Both the position numbers and the translations under genes were made by a program. A stretch of 64,000 nucleotides of DNA from Serratia marcescens subsp. marcescens ATCC 13880 (GTDB taxonomy: Bacteria > Pseudomonadota > Gammaproteobacteria > Enterobacterales > Enterobacteriaceae), in the NCBI RefSeq assembly GCF_017299535.1, contig NZ_CP071238.1:3844001-3908000 (forward strand), in the 5' to 3' direction. Shown in pieces: positions 24,203 through 35,430 of this stretch (the first letter of the stretch is position 1; the number at the start of each line of letters is the position of its first letter). The notes under the pieces are model-generated. The model worked only from the letters and a program-made list of their open reading frames with translations, was not told where the DNA came from and made no database searches.

Positions 24203-24228
24203 GGAGCGCGGCCGTCAAGCCGCGCTCC
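24203..24228. terminator. Hairpin between hmp and the cytochrome c gene
   Basis: A perfect 10-bp stem GGAGCGCGGC / GCCGCGCTCC with a 6-base loop lies between the two convergent genes. The plus strand continues CTCTTCATTTC, a weak T-run. It probably ends hmp transcription and may serve the opposite strand. Confidence 0.65.
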
Positions 24229-24232
24229 CTCT

Positions 24233-25417
24233 TCATTTCGCCTGCAGTTGGCGCGCGTCCTGGACCTGCAGCGCCGTCACCGGCGCCGCCTGGTTGCCCC
24301 AGCTTCCCCGCAGATAGCTCATCAGATCCGCCGCTTGACGATCGTTCAACGCCCAGCCGTAGGCCGGCATGTCGAACGCCATCGCCTGCTGCGTGATCGG
24401 CGTATGCGCCCCTTCCAGCACCACCCGCAGCGCGGTCAGCGGATTGTCCGCCGTTACCGTGGCGTTGCCCGCCAGCGCCGGAATGGCGAAGTCGGTGCCT
24501 TCACCTTTATTGCCGTGGCAGGTCGAGCAGTACATCGCATAGGTCGCCTTGCCGCCCGAATTATCCGCCTGCACGGCAGGCGCAGCGGCTTTGGCGGCGG
24601 TGTCCGGCGCCAGGCTGCGCAGGTACACCGCGATGGCGTTCAGATCGCCGTCGCTGAGGTACTGCGTGCTGTGGGTCACCACCTCGCTCATCGGCCCGGC
24701 GACCGCCGCATGGCGGCTGCGGCCGGTCTTCAGCAGCGCCGTCACCTCTTCCGGCGGCAGCCCGCGCAGATTGGAGGCGTACCAGCCGTCCAGCTCGGCG
24801 CCGCTCAGGAACACCGGTTCCTTGCCGTCCAGCCCCTTCTCCTGCATCGCCCAGCCGCGCGGCGTATGGCAGCTGCCGCAGTGGCCCGCGCCCTGCACCA
24901 GATAAGCGCCGCGGTTCCACTCGGCGCTTTGCTGCGGATCCGCCTGATACGGCTGGTCGTCGTGGAACAGCTGGTTCCACACCGCCAGCGGCCAACGCAT
25001 CGACAGCGGCCAGCTGATGTCGCTGTCCCGGTTGGCGACGTTCTGCGCCGGCACCTCATTCATCAGATAGTCATACAGCGCGCGCATGTCTTCCGCGCTC
25101 ATTTTGGCGTACGAGGTGTACGGCATCGCCGGGTAGAGCCGGTGGCCGTCTTTGGCCACCCCCTGACGCATGGCGCGATCGAACTCCTCGAACGAATAGG
25201 CGCCGATGCCGTGCAGCTTGTCCGGCGTGATGTTGGTGGCGTAGATAGCCCCGAGCGGCGTCGGAAACTTCATGCCGCCCGCCAATTCTGCGCCGCCCGG
25301 CGCGGTATGGCAGGCGGTGCAGTCACCGGCTTTGGCGACGTATTCACCGGCCGACATCGCCTGGGCCGAGCCGCCGGCGGCCAACAGGCTCAACAGGTAC
25401 AGCGAGCGCAGACTCAT
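24233..25417 (-). CDS. Triheme cytochrome c, likely electron acceptor of spermidine dehydrogenase
   Basis: 394 residues with a Sec signal peptide (MSLRSLYLLSLLAAGGSAQA). Three CxxCH heme sites are visible: CTACH (33-37), CGSCH (180-184) and CSTCH (297-301), one per cytochrome domain. The layout matches the cytochrome subunits of periplasmic alcohol and gluconate dehydrogenases, which pass electrons to ubiquinone or an oxidase. Its ATG overlaps the spermidine dehydrogenase stop by 4 bases (ATGA), so the two are translated together. No C-terminal membrane anchor is evident. The role as partner is inferred from context. Confidence 0.85.
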   Translation of the reverse strand: MSLRSLYLLSLLAAGGSAQAMSAGEYVAKAGDCTACHTAPGGAELAGGMKFPTPLGAIYATNITPDKLHGIGAYSFEEFDRAMRQGVAKDGHRLYPAMPYTSYAKMSAEDMRALYDYLMNEVPAQNVANRDSDISWPLSMRWPLAVWNQLFHDDQPYQADPQQSAEWNRGAYLVQGAGHCGSCHTPRGWAMQEKGLDGKEPVFLSGAELDGWYASNLRGLPPEEVTALLKTGRSRHAAVAGPMSEVVTHSTQYLSDGDLNAIAVYLRSLAPDTAAKAAAPAVQADNSGGKATYAMYCSTCHGNKGEGTDFAIPALAGNATVTADNPLTALRVVLEGAHTPITQQAMAFDMPAYGWALNDRQAADLMSYLRGSWGNQAAPVTALQVQDARQLQAK

Positions 25418-27324
25418 GCTCCCTCCTTGGCGGCAATCTTGCCGTAGGCCAGTTCATTCACCGCACGCCACGCCTGATCGATCGCCGAGTTAGCGTACGG
25501 GCTCCAGTCGGCATCGGAGTTGGCGATAGCGATCTTGCCGATCGGCTGCCGCGCCGTTTCGATGATTTTCTTGGCTTCGTCTTCGTCATCAAACAGCCCG
25601 TTAAGGAAGTAGGAGTAACCGTGTGACCAGCGGTTGACAGTGATCGCCTGAATGTCGCGCTGATGATCGAAACCGGCCTCGCCCAGCATGCCCTGCAGCT
25701 GTTCGCGGATCATCTGTTCGTGCACTTCGAACGGCGTGCCCAGCAGCAGCGCGCGCCCTTTGCGCGACTGTTCGCGCGTGCTGAGGCCGCTGCCCGGCAG
25801 CGTCGGCACATACACCATATGCAGGCCGATCGGCCGATCCGGATCGCGCGGGTGCTGATAGCCGCCCATGCTCACCGGATAGTCCAGCTTCACGCGGCTG
25901 TACGGCGCGGCCGGCGAATAGACCTCGTGCACGCCCAGCTTGATGAACGGCTGCCAGTTGCGGATCACCACCTTGCTGTACACCAGCGGCGCCTTGACGT
26001 TCTGCTTCAGCGCCTCCTGCTGCTCGTGCGCCATCTCCGGCACCAGATACGGGATCATCATGTTGTAGCCGGCCATCACCACCTGTCCGGCGCGCACTTT
26101 GGTCATCTTCTCGCCGGTCATGTAGGTGACTTCCACCTTGTCGCCGACGTTGGCCGCGTGCAGCCCGGTGCTGTTCAAACGCAGCTTCACCGGCGATTCC
26201 GGCCGATCGAGCTGGCTGTAGTCGAATTTGGCCAGCACCACATCGTTCATGTCCTTGCCGGCCGGCGCCACCGCCGGGATCAGTTGGCGCACCATCAGGC
26301 GCGCCAGCGTGGCGTTGCCGTCCGGGAAGTGGAACACGTAAGGATCGTCGAGATCCGCCTGCGACTCTTCGTCCAGCGGCGGCAGATTCATGCCGTTCAG
26401 GCCCGGCAGATCGCAAATGCGCGCATCGCTGCACGACGTGCCGTCGATGCCCACCGCCTGAAAATCGTTGGTGGTCTGCTGGAAATAACGGATCGCCAGT
26501 TCGCTCAGGCCCACCTTCTCGCGCAGGAACTGGGTGTAGCTGTGGCTGTCGAGCCAGTCGACCTTCTGCTCCAGCGTCATCTCCGGCAGATAGTCTTTCT
26601 CCACCGTGTGCAGCGCGATCAGCGCCTGGCGATCGCTTTCCGGCAGCGGGAAATCGCCGATGAACGCTTCATAAGAGCGGCCATTGAGGCGATCGCGCGG
26701 AATGTCGTCCGCCACCGTGCGGCCCGGATCGCCGCTCACCACCTTGTCGACGCCGAAGTTCTTGCGATCGAAGTAAACCCCGCGGCTCAAATTCAAATCC
26801 GGGTAGAAGGTGGTGTCGAAAGCCTGCTCCAGTTGATCGATATCGACGCCGAGCTTGCGCAGCAGCCCCATCGCCACCGGGCTGAAGTTGGAGCGCGGCG
26901 ACTGCAGCGATTCGCTGCCGCCGTAGCCGAGCAGCATGCCGTCGTCGCTGTTGAACTCGTTGCGCTTGGCGTGGCCGCCGAAGTCGTCGTGGTTGTCGAT
27001 CAAAAGAATGCGCTGCCGCTCGCCTTTCAGCTGCTGCCAGAAACAGGCGGCCGCCAGCCCGCTGATGCCGGCGCCCACCACCACCAGATCGAACTCTTCA
27101 ACGGCGGGCACGCTGCCGAAATCAAAGGTTTTGCCGTCGCGCCCCAGCTGGTGCGCATGCTCGAACGAGCCCGGATGATTGCCCCGCAGCCCGGTCAGCG
27201 CCGGCGGATAGTACAGGGTTTGATTGGCGGTTTGCGGCGACGCGCGCAAGATTTGCAGCGGCGTCAACCCGGCGGCGATGGTGATCGCCACTCCGTTGAG
27301 AAAATCTCGTCTGGTGATACCCAT
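25414..27324 (-). CDS. spdH: Spermidine dehydrogenase SpdH-like, Tat-exported flavoprotein
   Basis: 636 residues. The N-terminus MGITRRDFLNGVAITIAAG has a twin-arginine motif (RRDFL, 5-9), so the folded protein is likely exported. An FAD-binding fold follows: VVVGAGISGLAA at 81-92 and the second strand LLIDNHDDFGGHAKRNEF from about 107. Spermidine dehydrogenase from Serratia marcescens is known as an FAD and heme enzyme that yields 1,3-diaminopropane and 4-aminobutyraldehyde; Pseudomonas SpdH is a homologue of this type. No CxxCH is present in this chain, so heme c would come from the neighbour. Identity rests on family recognition plus the polyamine neighbours. Confidence 0.78.
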   Translation of the reverse strand: MGITRRDFLNGVAITIAAGLTPLQILRASPQTANQTLYYPPALTGLRGNHPGSFEHAHQLGRDGKTFDFGSVPAVEEFDLVVVGAGISGLAAACFWQQLKGERQRILLIDNHDDFGGHAKRNEFNSDDGMLLGYGGSESLQSPRSNFSPVAMGLLRKLGVDIDQLEQAFDTTFYPDLNLSRGVYFDRKNFGVDKVVSGDPGRTVADDIPRDRLNGRSYEAFIGDFPLPESDRQALIALHTVEKDYLPEMTLEQKVDWLDSHSYTQFLREKVGLSELAIRYFQQTTNDFQAVGIDGTSCSDARICDLPGLNGMNLPPLDEESQADLDDPYVFHFPDGNATLARLMVRQLIPAVAPAGKDMNDVVLAKFDYSQLDRPESPVKLRLNSTGLHAANVGDKVEVTYMTGEKMTKVRAGQVVMAGYNMMIPYLVPEMAHEQQEALKQNVKAPLVYSKVVIRNWQPFIKLGVHEVYSPAAPYSRVKLDYPVSMGGYQHPRDPDRPIGLHMVYVPTLPGSGLSTREQSRKGRALLLGTPFEVHEQMIREQLQGMLGEAGFDHQRDIQAITVNRWSHGYSYFLNGLFDDEDEAKKIIETARQPIGKIAIANSDADWSPYANSAIDQAWRAVNELAYGKIAAKEGA

Positions 27325-27409
27325 ATAGGCTTCCTTTCAATTTTTATTATCATCAGCCGGCCGGAGCCGGCTCGAAGGCCGCGCTATTGTGCGGATAATT
27401 ACTGTAAAA

Positions 27410-28834
27410 TCAATGTTTGAACATGACATGACGAATAGCCGTGTAATCCTCCAGCCCGTACATCGACATATCCTTGCCGTAGCCGGACAATTTCTGGCCG
27501 CCGTGCGGCATTTCGCTCACCAGCATGAAGTGGGTGTTCACCCAGGTGCAGCCGTATTGCAGGCGGGCGCTTAAGCGATGCGCGCGGCCCACGTCGCGGG
27601 TCCACACGGACGACGCCAGGCCGTAGTTGGATTCGTTCGCCCAGGCCAGCACCTGCTCTTCGTCGTCGAACGGCGTCACCGTCACCACCGGGCCGAACAC
27701 TTCGCGCTGCACGATCTCATCGTCCTGGCGCGCGCCGGCCAACAGCGTCGGCTGGAAGTAATAGCCCGGCCCTTTCACCTTCTCGCCGCCGGTCACCACC
27801 TGCACGTGCGGCAACGCTTTGGCGCGCTCGACAAAACCGGCCACCCGCTCCAGATGCTGGGCGGTAATCAACGGCCCCAGCTCGGTGCTCTCGTCGTCCG
27901 GCGCGCCGATCTTCAGGCTGGCCACCGCCTCGCCCAACCGCTTGACCAGCTCGGGATAAATGTTTTTCTGCGCGTAGATGCGGCAGGCGGCGGTGCAATC
28001 CTGCCCGGCGTTGTAGAAACCGAAGCCGCGAATGCCGTCCACCACCTGCTGCAGATCGGCGTCGTCGAACACCAGCACCGGCGCCTTGCCGCCCAGCTCC
28101 ATATGGGTGCGCTTAATGCCGGCGGCGGTGTGGGCGATAATGTGCTCACCGGTGGCGATCGACCCGGTCAGCGACACCATGCGCACCTTGTCATGCCCGG
28201 TCAGCCGATCGCCAACGCTGGCGCCGCGCCCGAACAGCACGTTGAGCACGCCCGGCGGGAACAGCCCGGCGGCCAATTCGGCCAGTTTGAAGGTGGTCAG
28301 CGGCGTCTGCTCCGACGGCTTGATCACCACGCAGTTGCCCGCCGCCAGCGCCGGCGCCAGTTTCCAGGCCGCCATCATCAGCGGGTAGTTCCACGGGGCG
28401 ATCGAAGCCACCACGCCGAGCGGATCGCGGCGGATCATCGAGGTATGCCCGGCCAGATACTCGCCGGCCGCCATGCCGGTCAGGCAGCGGCTGGCCCCGG
28501 CGAAGAAGCGAAACACGTCGGCCACCGCCGGCAGTTCGTCATTCAATACGCAGTGATAAGGCTTGCCGCAGTTGAGCGACTCCAGCCTGGCGAAGGTCTC
28601 GGCATGCTCGTCGATCAGATCCGCCAGCTTGAGCAGATGCTCGGCGCGCTCCTTCGGCGTGGTTTGCCCCCAGGCGGCGAACGCGGCGTCCGCCGCCAGC
28701 ACCGCGCGATCGACCTGCTCCGGGCTGGCCTCCGCCACCTGCGCGATCACTTCGCCGGTCGCCGGGTTATACACCGGCTGGGTCGCGCCCTGGCCGTTCA
28801 CCAGTTGGCCGTCAATCAACAGTTGGCTTTGCAT
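27410..28834 (-). CDS. patD: 4-aminobutyraldehyde dehydrogenase PatD (YdcW)
   Basis: 474 residues, the length of E. coli PatD. It oxidises 4-aminobutyraldehyde to GABA with NAD+ in putrescine degradation. The general base Glu246 (MELGGKAPV) and catalytic Cys280 ([11 protein letters not shown]) are at the E. coli positions. It lies 35 bases after ydcV, completing a ydcSTUV-patD operon as in E. coli, but spdH follows 85 bases downstream. A second paralogue is at 32922-34385. Confidence 0.9.
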
Positions 28835-28869
28835 AGGGTTATCCTTTTATCAGAGGTCGGGTAAGGAAA

Positions 28870-29676
28870 TTATTTGCCGCTGCCGGCGACGCTTTCCCCA
28901 CCTTTGGTCAGGTAGTAAGCGCCGAGGATCGGCAGCATGGTCAACAGCATCACCGACAGCGCCACCACGTTGGTGATTGGCACGTCGCGCGGGCGGCCGA
29001 GCTGGTTCAGCAGCCACAGCGGCAGCGTGCGCTCGTGGCCGGCGGTAAAGGTGGTCACGATGATTTCATCGAACGACAGCGCAAACGCCAGCATGCCGCC
29101 GGCCAGCAGCGCCGAGCCGAGGTTCGGCAGGATCACATAGCGGAAGGTTTGCCAGCCGTCGGCGCCGAGATCCATCGACGCTTCGATCAGGCTGTACGAG
29201 GTACGGCGGAATCGGGCGATGACGTTGTTGAACACGATCACCACGCAGAACGTCGCATGGCCGACGACGATGGTCAGGATGCCCGGCTCGATGTTCAGCG
29301 CCTTGAACGCCGCCAGCAGCGCCAGGCCGGTGACGATCCCCGGCAGCGCGATCGGCAGCAGCAACAGCAGCGAAATGCTGTCTTTGCCGAAGAAATCGCG
29401 CCGATACAGCGCCGCCGCCGCCAGGGTGCCGAGCACCAGCGCGATGGCGGTCGCCAGGCAGGCGATCTGCGCCGACAGCAGCACCGCATCGAGGATGTCC
29501 TGCCGTCCGGCGGCGACGTTAAACCAGTGCAGCGTGAAGCCCTTCGGCGGGAAGCTGAAGGCCGCGTCCTCGGTGTTGAAGGCGTAGATGGCGATGATCG
29601 CCAACGGGAAATGCAGGAAGACAAGTCCGCCCCAGGCGGCCAGCTTCAGCCCTAAGGGCGCGCGTTCAGAGTGCAT
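28870..29676 (-). CDS. ydcV: ABC transporter permease YdcV
   Basis: 268 residues, six predicted membrane segments, MetI-like permease fold of the PotC type. The EAA loop, which contacts the ATPase, is visible at [20 protein letters not shown]. With YdcU it forms the channel of a polyamine-type importer. The start overlaps ydcU by 11 bases, consistent with coupled translation. Confidence 0.88.
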
Positions 29677-30610
29677 CGAAAGCCCCCAGACGTTTGACGA
29701 TGGAAAGGTAGATGGCGATCAGGACGATCGGCACCAGCGTAAAGGCCGCGGCCATCGGCATATTGCCGATCGCGCCCTGCTGGGCGTAGACCATGCTGCC
29801 GATGAAATAGCCCGGCGGCCCCACCAGCTGCGGCACGATAAAGTCGCCCAGCGTCAGTGAGAAGGTGAAGATCGATCCGGCGGCGATGCCCGGCACCGCC
29901 AGCGGCAAAATGACATGGCGGAAGGTCTGCGCCGGCCGGGCGCCCAGATCCGCCGAGGCGTGCAGCAGCGAGGGCGGCAGGCGCTCCAGCGCCGCCTGGA
30001 TCGGCAGGATCATGAACGGCAGCCAGATATAGACGAACACCAGAAAACGCCCCAGCCCCGAGGTCGACAGCGTGTTGCCGCCGACGCCGGGCACCGTCAA
30101 CAGCGACGCCAACAACGGCTCCAGCCCCAGGTGCTGCAGGAACCACTGCGCCACGCCGTCTTTCGCCAGCAGCAAAGTCCAGGCATAGGCTTTAACGATA
30201 TAGCTGGCCCACATCGGCATCATCACCGCGATGTAAAAGAACGCCTTGACGCGGCCGCTGGTGTAGCGCGCCATGTAATAGGCGATCGGGAACGCCAGCG
30301 CCGCGCTGGCCAGCGACACCAGCACCGCCATGGTCAACGTGCGCAGGATGATGTCGTAGTTGGCCGGGTTGAACAACGCCGCCAGGTTGGCGAAGGTCAG
30401 ATCCGGCGTCACCGCCATGGTGAAATCGTCGAAGGTGTAAAACCCTTGCCACAGCAGCGTCAGCAGCGAACCGAGGTAGACCGCGCCGAACCACAGCAGC
30501 GGCGGCACCAGCAGTAACAGCAGATACAGCGTCGGCCGGCGATAGAGCCAGGTCGACAGCGCGCGCACGGTACCGCCGCGCGCCGGGGGGGAATCGATGC
30601 TCATGTCCAT
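29666..30610 (-). CDS. ydcU: ABC transporter permease YdcU
   Basis: 314 residues, six predicted membrane segments, PotB-type permease. The EAA-like loop reads [20 protein letters not shown]. Start is Met1 or Met3 ([13 protein letters not shown]). It begins one base after the ydcT stop and overlaps ydcV by 11 bases, so T, U and V are made as one unit. Confidence 0.88.
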
Positions 30611-30611
30611 C

Positions 30612-31640
30612 TCACCTCTCCTCCAGCAGCGGCACCATCGCCGCGCGCGGCCAGCAGGCGACGATCGGCTGGCCGATCTGCCGCTGTTGCCCTTCGGCGA
30701 TCCACTGCGGATTGGCCTGGCTGACCAGCAGCTTTTCGCCGCCGTTCAGCGCGATTTCATAGCGCGTGGCCGCGCCCTGGTAATGGATTTCCTGCAGCGT
30801 GCCCTGCACCTGGATCTCGTCCTGCGCCGCGCCGCCTTGCTCCAGCAGGCGGATATGTTCCGGCCGGATCGAGAAGGTTCGGCTTTCGCCGAGCAGGCGC
30901 TGCGCCAGCTCGCTGCGCACCACGTTGGAGGTGCCGACGAACTCGGCGACGAACGGCGTCTTCGGCCGCATGTAAAGCTCGCGCGGCGTATCCACCTGTT
31001 CGATGCGGCCGTTATTGAACACCGCCACCCGATCGGACATCGACAGCGCTTCGCTTTGATCGTGGGTGACGAAGATAAAGGTGATGCCCAGCTGGCGCTG
31101 CAGCTTCTTCAGCTCGCCCTGCATCTGCTCGCGCAGCTTGAGATCCAGCGCGCCGAGCGGTTCGTCCAGCAGCAGCACCCGCGGCCGATTGACCAGCGCG
31201 CGCGCCAGCGCCACGCGCTGCCGCTGGCCGCCCGACAGGTGCGCCGGCTTGCGTTCGGCGACGAAACCGAGCGCCACGCTCTCCAGCGCCTCTTGCGCCC
31301 GCGCCAGCCGCTCGCGTTTGGCGACCCCCTTCACCATCAGGCCGTAGGCGACGTTTTCCAGCACCGACATGTGCGGAAACAGCGCGTAATCCTGAAACAC
31401 GGTGTTCACGTCGCGCTGGTACGGCGGCAGGTTGGCGGCTTCCTGGCCGTGGATGCGAATCGAGCCGGAAGTGAGCTGTTCAAAGCCGGCGATCAGGCGC
31501 AGGCAGGTGGTTTTGCCCGAGCCGGACGGCCCGAGCATGGAGAAGAATTCCCCGTCCTGAATGTCGATGGATACCCGATCCACGGCGCGAACATCGCCGA
31601 AAGTCCGCGAAACATCGATGAATTGCACGGCAATGGTCAT
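30612..31640 (-). CDS. ydcT: ABC transporter ATP-binding protein YdcT
   Basis: 342 residues. PotA-type ATPase that drives the YdcUV channel. Walker A GPSGSGKTT is at 37-45, the signature is LSGGQRQRVALARAL, and Walker B is VLLLDEPLGALD. A C-terminal TOBE domain (from about residue 270) follows. It lies 53 bases after ydcS. Confidence 0.92.
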   Translation of the reverse strand: MTIAVQFIDVSRTFGDVRAVDRVSIDIQDGEFFSMLGPSGSGKTTCLRLIAGFEQLTSGSIRIHGQEAANLPPYQRDVNTVFQDYALFPHMSVLENVAYGLMVKGVAKRERLARAQEALESVALGFVAERKPAHLSGGQRQRVALARALVNRPRVLLLDEPLGALDLKLREQMQGELKKLQRQLGITFIFVTHDQSEALSMSDRVAVFNNGRIEQVDTPRELYMRPKTPFVAEFVGTSNVVRSELAQRLLGESRTFSIRPEHIRLLEQGGAAQDEIQVQGTLQEIHYQGAATRYEIALNGGEKLLVSQANPQWIAEGQQRQIGQPIVACWPRAAMVPLLEER

Positions 31641-31693
31641 TTTCTGTGCTCCATTCTGATGTAATTCGGGCGCAGCGGGCTGCGCCCCGCGGC

Positions 31694-32848
31694 TTAGCGG
31701 CCGCCCATGATGGCGATGTAATCCTGGGTCCAGCGGCTATATGGCACAAACTTGCCGCCCTGCGCCTGCGGCGTTTTCCAGAAGGCGATTTTATCGAACT
31801 GGTTAAAGCCGTTGGTTTCGCAGCCCTTCTCACCCAGCAGCGCGCTGGCCTTACAGCCCGCCGGCGAAGCCGGCACCGACCCGAACCAGGCCGCCACATC
31901 ACCCTGCACCTTCGGCTCCAGCGACCAGTTCATCCACTGGTAGGCGCAGCTCGGGTGTTTGGCGTCGCTGTGCAACATGGTGGTATCCGCCCAGCCGGTC
32001 ACGCCCTCTTTCGGGAACACGGTGGCGATCGGCTGCCCCTCGCCCTTCAGGGCGTTGGCCTGATACGGCCAGGCGCTGGAGGCCACCACGCCTTCGTTTT
32101 TAAAGTCGCTCATCTGCACCGAGGTGTCGTGCCAGTAGCGGTGGATCAGCGCGTGCTGGCTGCGCAGCAGCTTCAGCGCCGCCTGATACTGCTCTTCGTT
32201 GAGCTGGTAAGGATCGCTGATGCCGAGCTGCGGCTGGGTGGCTTTCAGGAACAACGCCGCGTCGGCGATGTAGATCGGGCCGTCGTAAGCCTGCACCCGC
32301 CCCTGGTTGCTCTTGCCGTCCGGCAGGTTCTGCTGCTGGAAGATCACCGCCCAGCTGTCCGGCGGCGTCGGGAAGGTTTTGGTGTTGTACATCAGCAGGT
32401 TCGGCCCCCACTGGTACGGCGTGCCGTAGGTTTTGCCGTCCACGGTGTACCAGGCGCCGTTCAACAGGCGCGGATCGATGTTCTTCCAGTTCGGGATCAG
32501 CGCGGTGTTGATCGGCTGCACCCGCTTGCCGAAGATCAGGCGCAGCGAGGCGTCGCCGGAGGCGGTCACCAGATCGTAGCCGCCCTTGGCCATCAGGCTG
32601 ACCATTTCATCGGAGGTGGCGGCGGTCTTCACGTTCACCGCACAGCCGGTTTGCTTCTCAAACTGGGTGACCCAGTCGTAGTTTTTGTCGGACTGGCCGC
32701 GTTCGATGTAGCCGGGCCAGGCGATGATATCCAGCCGGCCTTCGCCTTTGCCCAGCGACTGCGGCAGATCGGCCGCCTGGGCCAGGCCGCACAGCACGGT
32801 GAGACAGAGCGCGGAGACGGTGGTGGTGACTGCGGTAGTTTTTCCCAT
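31694..32848 (-). CDS. ydcS: Periplasmic polyamine-binding protein YdcS
   Basis: 384 residues. A signal peptide (MGKTTAVTTTVSALCLTVLC ... AQAA) is followed by a mature protein nearly identical in pattern to E. coli YdcS, for example RLDIIAWPGYIERGQSDKNY and the C-terminus YSRWTQDYIAIMGGR. It is the substrate-binding subunit of the YdcSTUV ABC importer, linked to putrescine-type substrates; the E. coli protein has also been linked to polyhydroxybutyrate synthesis. It lies 73 bases downstream of the extra aldehyde dehydrogenase. Confidence 0.92.
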   Translation of the reverse strand: MGKTTAVTTTVSALCLTVLCGLAQAADLPQSLGKGEGRLDIIAWPGYIERGQSDKNYDWVTQFEKQTGCAVNVKTAATSDEMVSLMAKGGYDLVTASGDASLRLIFGKRVQPINTALIPNWKNIDPRLLNGAWYTVDGKTYGTPYQWGPNLLMYNTKTFPTPPDSWAVIFQQQNLPDGKSNQGRVQAYDGPIYIADAALFLKATQPQLGISDPYQLNEEQYQAALKLLRSQHALIHRYWHDTSVQMSDFKNEGVVASSAWPYQANALKGEGQPIATVFPKEGVTGWADTTMLHSDAKHPSCAYQWMNWSLEPKVQGDVAAWFGSVPASPAGCKASALLGEKGCETNGFNQFDKIAFWKTPQAQGGKFVPYSRWTQDYIAIMGGR

Positions 32849-32921
32849 CGTAATTACCCCTGTGTTGCTTATCGGTATGCGGCAGGGAACGGCTGCCGCC
32901 TGATTTTTCTTGATATAACCG

Positions 32922-34385
32922 TTAGAAGCCGGCTTTGAACTTCGCCATTACGTGCCTGACAACGCTGTAATCCTGCAGCGAATCGCTGGACAGATCCTTG
33001 CCGTAGCCGGAGCGTTTCAGGCCGCCGTGCGGCATTTCGCTCGCCAAGGTGAAATGGGTGTTGATCCAGGTGCTGCCGTACTGCAGATGAGCGGCGATGT
33101 GCAGCGCCCGATCGATATTTTGCGTCCACACCGACGAGGCCAGGCCGTATTCCGAGTCGTTGGCCCACGCGACCGCCTGCTCCAGGTGTTCGAAGCGCGT
33201 GACGCTGACCACCGGGCCAAACACCTCACGCTGCACGATCTCGTCGCTTTGCAGGCAACCCGCCAGCAGGGTCGGCTGGTAGTAGAACCCCGGCCCGGAG
33301 TGCGCCGCGGCGCCGGTGATCAATTCGATATGCGGTTGGCTGAGCGCCCGCTCGACAAAGCTGGCGACGCGATCGCGCTGGCGGGCACTGATCAGCGGGC
33401 CGATCTCGTTGTCCTGATCGCGCTTGCGGGCGAAGCGCAGGCTGGCGACCGCCTCGCCCAGCGCGTCCACCAGTTTGGGATAGATGCCGGCCTGCGCGTA
33501 GATGCGGCAGGCGGCGGTGCAGTCCTGGCCGGCGTTGTAATAGCCGTAGGTGCGAATGCCGTTGACCACCTCGTCGAGATCGGCGTCGTCGCAGACGATC
33601 ACCGGCGCTTTGCCCCCCAGCTCCAGATGAGTGCGCTTGACGCTTTTGGCCGCCGCCTGGAGAATTTTTTGCCCGGTGACGATATCGCCGGTGACCGACA
33701 CCAGCCGCACCTGCGGGTGCCCCACCAGCTGGCTGCCGACCCCTTCCCCGCCGCCGTAGACAATATTCAGCACGCCCGGCGGCAGGATCTCCTGCAGCGC
33801 CGGCACCAGCGCCAAAATGGTCAGCGGCGTGTGCTCGGACGGTTTGAACACCACGGTATTGCCCGCCGCCAACGCCGGCGCAATCTTCCACGCCGCCATC
33901 ATCAGCGGATAGTTCCAGGGAGCGATCGAGGCCACCACGCCGATCGGATCGCGGCGGATCATCGAGGTGTGGCCCGGCACATACTCACCGGCCAGTTGCC
34001 CTTGCTGCGTACGCACCGCGCCGGCGAAGAAGCGGAACACGTCGACCGCCGCCGGCAGATCGTCATTGAGCGCCTGATGCAGCGGCTTGCCGCAGTTGAG
34101 GGCTTCCAGCTGCGCCAACTGCGGCGCCTGCCGCTCGATGGCGTCGGCGATGCGCAGCAACAGCGTGGCGCGCTGGGCCGGCGTAGTGCGCGACCAATGG
34201 CCAAACGCCTGCTGCGCGGCTTTCACCGCGCTGCCGACCTGCGCCGCAGAGGCTTCGGTAAGGGCGATCAGCGTCTCGCCGTTGGCCGGATTGACGATGC
34301 ATTCCTGCTGGCCTTCGCCGTCGATAAGCTGACCGTTAATGAACTGCTGACAGGACAAACCTGAGAGAACCTGCACATCCGCCAT
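32922..34385 (-). CDS. Second aminoaldehyde dehydrogenase (PatD paralogue)
   Basis: 487 residues, closely related to the PatD at 27410. Catalytic Glu255 (LELGGKAPV) and Cys289 ([11 protein letters not shown]) are present. Compared with PatD it carries about nine extra N-terminal residues ([20 protein letters not shown]). It is the first structural gene after the LysR regulator. Likely substrates are 4-aminobutyraldehyde or, by inference, 3-aminopropanal from 1,3-diaminopropane; the sequence alone cannot separate these. Confidence 0.85.
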
Positions 34386-34500
34386 CGCCTGACGCCCCTA
34401 AGTGACAAAAACGTTAACCAAATGTGAATAAGTTAGTTTTAATCAGCCTAAGCGAGCCTCTGGCGGGCAACAAATTCTAAATACTGAACGACGCGTTCGA

Positions 34501-35430
34501 TTAAATCGAATGCTTAAGCCCGGCGGCGTGTTTGCTGCCGTTCTCACGCGCGATGGTGAGGAACGGCGTCACCAGCTCCGGCCGCGCGCTACCGCGCCGC
34601 CATGCCAACCCGATATCCAGCGGCTCCAGCAAATCGTCCAGCTTGCGCGCCTCGATCATGTTGCCCTCCAGCGACCAGGCGCGGTACGCCATGTCCGGTT
34701 GGATGGAGACGCCCATCCCCGCCGCCACCAGGCTGCGCACCGCCTCGGTCGAGGCGGTCTTCATGGCGATCTCCGGCTTCAGCCCGGCGCGCGCCCAGAT
34801 GCGCCGCGCGTGCACGTCCATTTCATCGGCGTTGAGCTGGATCAGCGGCTGTTTGGCCACGTCCGCCAGGCTGATGCTCTCGTGCTCCAGCAGCGGGTGC
34901 AGCGGCGGCAGCCACAGACGATACGGCGAGTGCATCAGCACCTCGGTCTGCAACGCGTCGCGGTCTTCGATATTCGACAAGATCAGCACGCCGATATCGA
35001 TCTCGCCGCTGACCAGCAGATGCTCGATGTACGGACGTTCGTCTTCAACCACCTGCACGGTGACGTTGGGATAAGCCGATTTAAAGCGCGTGAGCAACTC
35101 CACCAGGAAATAACCGGCCACCAGGCTGGTGACGCCGATAGTCAGCTTGCCGGTCAGGCTTTCGGTACCGATCTGCAGGCTGCGCTTGGCGTTGTCCACC
35201 GTCGCCAGGATCAGATACGACTGGCGCAAAAATTGGTGCCCCTGATGGGTCAGCGTCATGCCCTTGGCGTGGCGATCGAACAGCCGCACGCCGATCTCGG
35301 TTTCCAGCTGCTGGATAGCGAGCGTCAGCGAAGACTGGGAGACAAACACCGCCTGGGCGCCGGCGGAGATCGACCCGGTTTCCGCCACGGCGATGAAGTG
35401 GCGGATTTGGCGTAACGTCATCATCCCCAT
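34501..35430 (-). CDS. LysR-family transcriptional regulator of the polyamine cluster
   Basis: 309 residues from the first ATG; an ATG at the third codon (35424) has better ribosome-site spacing (GAAAGG) and is a good alternative. The N-terminal winged helix is clear (MTLRQIRHFIAVAETGSIS, then an AVFVSQSSLTLAIQQLE recognition segment). The C-terminal two-lobed effector domain follows. It lies on the same strand 115 bases upstream of the aldehyde dehydrogenase, so it may be co-transcribed with the cluster. The effector is unknown; an aminoaldehyde or polyamine is an inference. Confidence 0.85.
   Translation of the reverse strand: MGMMTLRQIRHFIAVAETGSISAGAQAVFVSQSSLTLAIQQLETEIGVRLFDRHAKGMTLTHQGHQFLRQSYLILATVDNAKRSLQIGTESLTGKLTIGVTSLVAGYFLVELLTRFKSAYPNVTVQVVEDERPYIEHLLVSGEIDIGVLILSNIEDRDALQTEVLMHSPYRLWLPPLHPLLEHESISLADVAKQPLIQLNADEMDVHARRIWARAGLKPEIAMKTASTEAVRSLVAAGMGVSIQPDMAYRAWSLEGNMIEARKLDDLLEPLDIGLAWRRGSARPELVTPFLTIARENGSKHAAGLKHSI

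Follow-up and report, generated by a model that had tools for sequence, protein, structure and literature searches.

What might be done by a cluster that encodes a spermidine dehydrogenase, an ATP-binding cassette (ABC) importer and two aldehyde dehydrogenases (ALDHs), and which compound does its importer carry? The question is raised by positions 24233-35430 of a window of Serratia marcescens subsp. marcescens ATCC 13880, the window being the whole stretch of 64,000 nucleotides analysed here (contig NZ_CP071238.1, positions 3,844,001 to 3,908,000). This interval is filled by nine minus-strand open reading frames (ORFs) in the order lysR-aldh2-ydcS-ydcT-ydcU-ydcV-patD-spdH-cytc. A sequence-only reading had described nine same-strand genes with short gaps or overlaps and had proposed that YdcSTUV takes up spermidine into one route to 4-aminobutyrate (GABA), built by adding a periplasmic step and a new regulator to an E. 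coli-like core. The layout agrees with the ORF coordinates, the gene identities agree with family cut-offs and PDB matches, and the idea of a common pathway is likely right in outline. The uptake of spermidine, the weakest part, is doubtful, and the history of the cluster has to be told differently.

A two-compartment pathway is tentatively proposed from the sequence comparisons and is judged nearly an even bet: periplasmic oxidation of spermidine, import of a product and cytoplasmic formation of GABA. SpdH would be exported folded to the periplasm by twin-arginine translocation (Tat) and would cleave spermidine to 1,3-diaminopropane and 4-aminobutyraldehyde/1-pyrroline, a reaction known for the enzyme family. 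Electrons would pass from flavin adenine dinucleotide (FAD) to heme b within SpdH, as shown for the P. aeruginosa enzyme, and from heme b through the triheme cytochrome to ubiquinone. YdcSTUV would import an oxidation product for cytoplasmic conversion to GABA by PatD, after which a GABA transaminase, whose gene lies elsewhere in the genome, would take over. A single operator, placed upstream of aldh2, would let LysR control the unit. The more specific claim, that YdcSTUV is an importer of 4-aminobutyraldehyde/1-pyrroline and not of polyamines, so that the pathway oxidises outside and imports the aldehyde, and that a flavo-heme-b dehydrogenase feeds a triheme cytochrome and then ubiquinone directly, is put forward more cautiously, as a possibility that may well fail. 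SpdH, PatD, YdcS and triheme subunits are each already known; their assembly and the importer cargo are the new points, and the portions of the open-access literature covered by our search contained no report linking spdH either to ydcSTUV or to the gene of a triheme cytochrome.

SpdH, the triheme cytochrome and the proposed electron exit

A spermidine dehydrogenase of Serratia has reportedly been known since 1970, from Tabor and Kellogg. The spdH gene of the window (25414..27324, minus strand, 636 aa) encodes a Tat-type FAD/heme-b enzyme that aligns through residues 1-625 of 636 with 7d9f_A, the solved P. aeruginosa enzyme (E 5e-246). In an alignment of 12 SpdH sequences, the other 11 of which are 49-90% identical to that of the window, TRRDFLNG, H58 and H568 are invariant, in agreement with the Tat-type N-terminus noticed earlier. 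By the offsets of the 7d9f alignment, H58 and H568 occupy the positions of the heme-b axial histidines, which are His54 and His562 in the P. aeruginosa enzyme (PMC12564564). The same source describes the S. marcescens spermidine dehydrogenase as heme-containing and yielding 1,3-diaminopropane and 1-pyrroline. For P. aeruginosa SpdH, a Tat signal was noted and a periplasmic place suggested (PMC11107197), and formation of 3-aminopropanal from spermine was also described (PMC7576179, PMC9397018).

The adjoining cytc (24233..25417, minus strand, 394 aa), whose start overlaps the spdH stop by 4 bp, encodes a triheme cytochrome c subunit with three CxxCH motifs and an N-terminus that looks Sec-like by eye. 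It matches 8hdd_B, 8gy2_B and 7w2j_C, each at E 1.1e-73 or better. The spdH loci compared here are the best 80 of at least 573 confirmed ones, and their flanks are partly short, so that counts of neighbours are lower bounds; at 35 of the 80, the gene immediately downstream of spdH is cytc. The distances of SpdH and cytc co-vary (r 0.90, against a largest value of 0.51 in 1000 permutations) across the window and 22 of the 35 spdH-cytc loci, a correlation to which shared ancestry contributes. The genome holds six further triheme cytochrome matches (L160-L165, L162 being flagged with an internal stop). One of them, L160, falls beside L051 inside the spdH-linked cytochromes, and a single origin of that set is thus not established.

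Direct transfer from cytochrome to ubiquinone is a feature of the alcohol-dehydrogenase group. The host genome encodes CcmE, for heme c attachment, and gave no match to cytochrome c1 (PF02167) or CcoO (PF02433), aa3-type cytochrome c oxidases not having been searched. Because no bc1 or cbb3 match was found, a direct step to ubiquinone is the simplest exit, and cytc is predicted to pass SpdH electrons along it. One review places spermidine dehydrogenase alongside membrane-associated complexes containing a c-type cytochrome (PMC6472588). The proposal supplies spermidine dehydrogenase with a likely physiological electron acceptor, and it points to a way in which bacteria that give no bc1/cbb3 match may connect a periplasmic amine dehydrogenase to quinone.

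The respiratory chains of other spdH-bearing bacteria were compared in 55 genomes, representing 48 of the 80 spdH loci and seven others. Among the 26 without CcoO, 24 have cytc beside spdH (the exceptions, L082 and L094, are metagenome-assembled), against 5 of the 29 with CcoO, of which one call (L088) is marginal. Three Commensalibacter genomes have a c1 match and no CcoO match. The association fits the proposed exit and is not an independent test of it, because the SpdH tree shows only three changes of the cytc label; this is a quick tree, and its branches are long at L081, L158, L077 and L074. An independent-pair test of cytc against cbb3 had too few pairs.

Importer, aldehyde dehydrogenases and cargo

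Upstream of spdH lies patD (27410..28834, minus strand, 474 aa), whose product passes the 4-aminobutyraldehyde dehydrogenase equivalog TIGR03374 (955 bits against a cut-off of 909) and matches PDB 1wnb at E 1.5e-258. The second PatD-type enzyme, encoded by aldh2 (32922..34385, minus strand, 487 aa), fails that equivalog (745 against 909 bits), passes the wider PRK13473 subfamily (787 against 615) and forms a clade separate from PatD in a quick ALDH tree; it probably takes a second aldehyde such as 3-aminopropanal, an assignment that we hold weakly. Between the two, on the same strand, are ydcV (28870..29676, 268 aa) and ydcU (29666..30610, 314 aa) for permease subunits with PF00528 (84% and 81% identical to E. 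coli YdcV and YdcU), ydcT (30612..31640, 342 aa) for an ATPase with PF00005 and PF08402 (72% to E. coli YdcT), and ydcS (31694..32848, 384 aa) for a periplasmic solute-binding protein. YdcS passes its own equivalog, NF041888 (805.5 against 725 bits; PDB 6nlp, E 3e-225), and misses those of PotF (72.6 of 636 bits) and PotD (51.6 of 582). In the E. coli K-12 record, YdcS is no more than a putative binding protein. Since SpdH would be exported and the aldehyde dehydrogenases are cytoplasmic, a product must cross the inner membrane, and YdcSTUV is the importer at hand. Its cargo would most likely be 4-aminobutyraldehyde/1-pyrroline.

The binding pocket bears on this choice. In PotF, the proximal residues S38, D39 and D247, the aromatic residues W37, W244 and F276, and distal residues including E185 and D278 have been described, with D247, D278, E185 and D39 conserved at 96% or more in 250 hits; PotF no longer bound putrescine once its three proximal residues had been replaced by their PotD counterparts (PMC8666671). 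It follows from this swap that PotD itself has no acid at 247. All seven YdcS rows compared, those of the window and of E. coli included, retain W37, W244 and D278 and have a W at 276 (PotF numbering), and they lack S38, D39, E185 and D247, which are replaced by P at 38, G at 39, Y at 185 (A in L203) and a gap at 247. Of the PotF amine-binding acids D39, D247, E185 and D278, YdcS therefore keeps only D278. By contrast, an acid is kept at 39 and at 185 in the PotF-like and PotD-like proteins of the same genome, whose names come from resemblance and from adjoining ABC genes and not from a family scan. The proposal opens the cargo of YdcSTUV to a concrete and cheap test.

These residues matter for two other accounts of the importer. 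YdcSTUV might bring in another amine, for example putrescine or the 1,3-diaminopropane released by SpdH, from which cytoplasmic transaminases would make aldehydes for PatD and ALDH2. The full aromatic box of YdcS, with W at 276 as in PotD, would suit such a cargo, and the two ALDH clades would suit two diamines; the GABA-transaminase model gave 11 matches in the genome, one over its cut-off, so that other class III transaminase-type genes are likely present. No transaminase gene lies within the unit, however, and all seven YdcS rows have substitutions at acids with which PotF and PotD alike hold amines; this account is considered unlikely, though not far-fetched. That spermidine itself enters through YdcSTUV, import and oxidation forming one route to GABA as first suggested, draws on the kinship of YdcSTUV with polyamine importers and on its linkage to spdH. 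The pocket acids are missing here too, the genome has genes for PotF-like and PotD-like proteins at other places, and exported SpdH could cut spermidine before it was taken up, which makes spermidine uptake doubtful and, in our judgement, improbable.

A further account would have spdH-cytc and the lysR-patD module as mere neighbours with unrelated jobs, and some of its evidence belongs with the findings that weigh against the two-compartment pathway as a whole. In 28 of the 35 spdH-cytc loci, the full lysR-patD core is absent from the stretch examined. Among 149 genomes of the family, ydcS occurs without spdH in 23 of the 32 that have it, and in E. coli K-12, ydcSTUV-patD adjoins ydcR with no spdH in that stretch; the importer therefore has a role without SpdH. 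S. inhibens keeps spdH-cytc without the importer at the glnB-hmp locus. The YdcS pocket residues come from a sequence alignment, not from a structure. On the respiratory side, five genomes combine CcoO with cytc, and the cytc label has changed few times. A C-terminal tail serves for membrane attachment in triheme subunits and may be a defining feature of the class. The window's cytc has no hydrophobic tail of this kind, whereas its paralogue L165 and the partner in L037 do: it has 93 residues after the last CxxCH and a non-hydrophobic end, and its alignment stops at 422 of 482 residues in 8hdd_B and 434 of 478 in 8gy2_B. Its membrane attachment is therefore unexplained. Since four of the six triheme paralogues in the same genome end in much the same way, the tail may not be defining.

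Unrelated jobs would also agree with G035, in which both parts are present on different contigs. Against this, the two are linked in Serratia and G126 and, with cytc missing, in Pseudomonas, and in G108 only 4.8 kb separate spdH-cytc from a ydcR-type core. In addition, one of the SpdH products is the PatD substrate, and spdH and ydcS co-occur in 9 of the 149 family genomes against 2.8 expected (p 1e-4, not corrected for kinship). Coincidental neighbourhood is accordingly thought slightly less probable even than spermidine uptake, and the two-compartment pathway is retained as the working proposal.

Regulation, conservation and history of the locus

The first gene, lysR (34501..35430, minus strand, 309 aa), encodes a LysR-type regulator (PF00126 and PF03466), which confirms a different regulator in the place of YdcR; the protein passed no equivalog cut-off among the 25 models shown. 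Its orthologues beside aldh2 in 10 Pseudomonas loci are 73-78% identical. Comparative footprinting points to a 21-bp motif between lysR and aldh2, TTCAGTATTTAGAATTTGTTG (34468..34488, minus strand), common to Serratia and Pseudomonas, as the site at which this LysR protein may act, a candidate operator. The 19-bp core of the motif recurs unchanged at 20 of the 21 loci of the first set that have both lysR and aldh2 (L054 is one base off) and in 24 of 25 core-bearing Serratia-like loci among L123-L148 (L133 is one base off); the full site is more worn in G126 (4 differences) and G035 (3 differences). With up to 3 mismatches, the motif matches the 5.16-Mb genome once, at this site, a reversed control also giving 1 match, and none was found in 100 shuffles of the window. 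Because the single match lies at lysR-aldh2, regulation is probably local.

The cluster lies between glnB/nadE on the lysR side and the converging hmp on the cytc side, with gaps, from lysR to cytc, of 115, 73, 53, 1, -11, 35, 85 and -4 bp. A terminator-like stem of 10 pairs, 9 of them G-C, lies 3' of hmp in the convergent hmp/cytc gap (24203..24228, plus strand), with a T-rich tail on the hmp strand only. Hairpin-like sequences were seen in the patD-spdH gap (27325-27409) and the ydcS-ydcT gap (31641-31693), the former recurring in the alignment and absent from L025; they are perhaps mRNA-stabilising or processing sites. A sigma-70 scan gave 2 sites, both on the other strand, against 2.3 in shuffles, and a search of Rfam gave no match.

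A comparison of SpdH neighbourhoods across Serratia, which had been suggested as a check, bore out the grouping. The spdH gene is present in 26 of 30 same-genus genomes, the remaining four being of 1.5 to 3.6 Mb, and 24 of the 26 loci were compared, leaving out the window itself and G525, whose spdH is broken between two contigs. The complete set of nine occurs in 23 of the 24 (L141 has spdH-cytc only), so that the arrangement is more than chance. The nadE/glnB and hmp/glyA flanks are as in the window in 22 of these 23; in the other, L142, hmp and glyA are visible and the contig ends before glnB. All nine genes also occur in L147 and L148, two loci of other genus codes. G126 has the whole set with neither glnB nor hmp in the stretches examined.

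In the family and the class at large, spdH is patchy (13 of 149 genomes of the family and 2 of 369 drawn from the class, that of the window included). A PatD-family ALDH, at 45% or more, lies in the spdH flank at no fewer than 34 of the 80 loci, and the full lysR-aldh2-ydcSTUV-patD core, by a strict rule, at 19 or more, 7 from Serratia and 12 from Pseudomonas; the core is also visible in L055 and L059 (Pseudomonas), where lysR is cut by the end of the stretch. As a unit, lysR-aldh2-ydcSTUV-patD occurs in Serratia, in Pseudomonas with spdH and without cytc, and in two further enterobacterial genera. In a tree of the five core proteins from 23 hand-picked cores, one 100/100 branch separates the 18 cores of the lysR form from the 5 of the ydcR form, and because the tree is unrooted, the polarity between them is unsettled. 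The view of the island as E. coli ydcSTUV-patD with additions was rejected, as the lysR form stands opposite the five ydcR rows across that branch; being shared with Pseudomonas and Enterobacterales, the lysR form is not a Serratia invention. By these comparisons, spdH-cytc appears as a separate and wider pair than the lysR-patD module. In G035, for instance, a lysR-type core and spdH-cytc are on separate contigs, and in G108, spdH-cytc lies 4.8 kb downstream of an E. coli-type ydcR-ydcSTUV-patD.

The two parts have also come apart. In S. inhibens (L021, 9633-10000), a 368-bp spacer separates glnB from spdH, both spdH and cytc being of full length. The spacer starts like other Serratia glnB-lysR spacers and ends, by eye, with the last patD codons followed by the patD-spdH gap. 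Because this patD 3' remnant precedes spdH, lysR-patD has been deleted here and spdH-cytc kept, and the locus was rejected as an ancestral empty site. Three Erwinia loci carry spdH-cytc at the same glnB-hmp site behind spacers of 159-179 bp, in which no patD-type remnant was seen by eye.

Some observations on spacers and outlying loci stand apart from this argument. A repeat with ATGAATTTCAAG, AAGTGACTGGGG and GGCTTGAAAG or close variants was seen in the glnB-lysR spacers of the window, L018 and L023, and the same element in the patD-spdH spacer of L024; it is probably a small mobile or palindromic repeat. The 1101-bp glnB-lysR spacer of Serratia sp. Ag1 (L025) holds, by eye, an extra reading frame with HPFREGNGR, which we take to be a Fic-type motif. 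SpdH of Commensalibacter (Acetobacteraceae; L031, L032 and L050) is placed among enterobacterial rows in a quick tree, which suggests transfer. In two Aeromonas genomes (L034:4528-9389, and L035), spdH adjoins an operon resembling a cyo-type quinol oxidase, named by a look at the sequences only.

Relation to known systems

The solved P. aeruginosa SpdH resembles the enzyme of the window in its near full-length match, its Tat-type start and both heme-b histidines. For most of its length, the triheme cytochrome can be aligned with its counterparts in quinone-linked alcohol and glucose dehydrogenases (8hdd_B, 8gy2_B), and for part of it with the triheme subunit of fructose dehydrogenase; in contrast to these, its catalytic neighbour is an SpdH-type flavohemoprotein, and its C-terminal tail is shorter. 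The E. coli ydcR-ydcSTUV-patD cluster has the same five-gene core in the same order at 72-84% identity, with a MocR-type YdcR where the window has LysR, and in E. coli K-12 no aldh2, spdH or cytc lies in the 14.5 kb examined.

Citrobacter/Buttiauxella clusters such as L041 share an spdH-cytc pair that adjoins a PatD-family ALDH, with a GABA transaminase nearby in L041. They differ in having an amino acid-polyamine-organocation (APC) permease, a PDC-sensor protein, a GntR regulator and a SnoaL-like protein, and the L041 stretch gave no ydcS, ydcU or ydcV match and only a 37% ATPase match. The SnoaL-like protein, which has about 158 aa and starts with a signal-like sequence, was seen adjoining spdH in both enterobacterial and Pseudomonas loci (L041:9438-9917, L047:9495-9971, L054:11950-12426). 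An amino-acid-permease family gene likewise accompanies spdH in clusters of the Citrobacter type and in some of those of Pseudomonas (L041:4741-6222, L053:8453-9937), and its product is a candidate second importer for SpdH products. The same enzyme pair thus appears joined with different importers and aldehyde dehydrogenases across lineages.

Close relatives of the arrangement are also the Pseudomonas lysR-aldh2-ydcSTUV-patD-(APC permease)-spdH clusters (14 of loci L053-L068), which share eight of its genes in unchanged order; the footprint motif is exact in 13 of these 14 and has one mismatch in L054. Some of these have an amino-acid-permease family gene before spdH, and unlike the window they have no triheme cytochrome gene beside it. 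Compared with the spermidine dehydrogenases of P. aeruginosa, S. marcescens and C. freundii, what distinguishes the present locus is the overlap of spdH with the gene of a triheme cytochrome and its position behind an importer-ALDH module.

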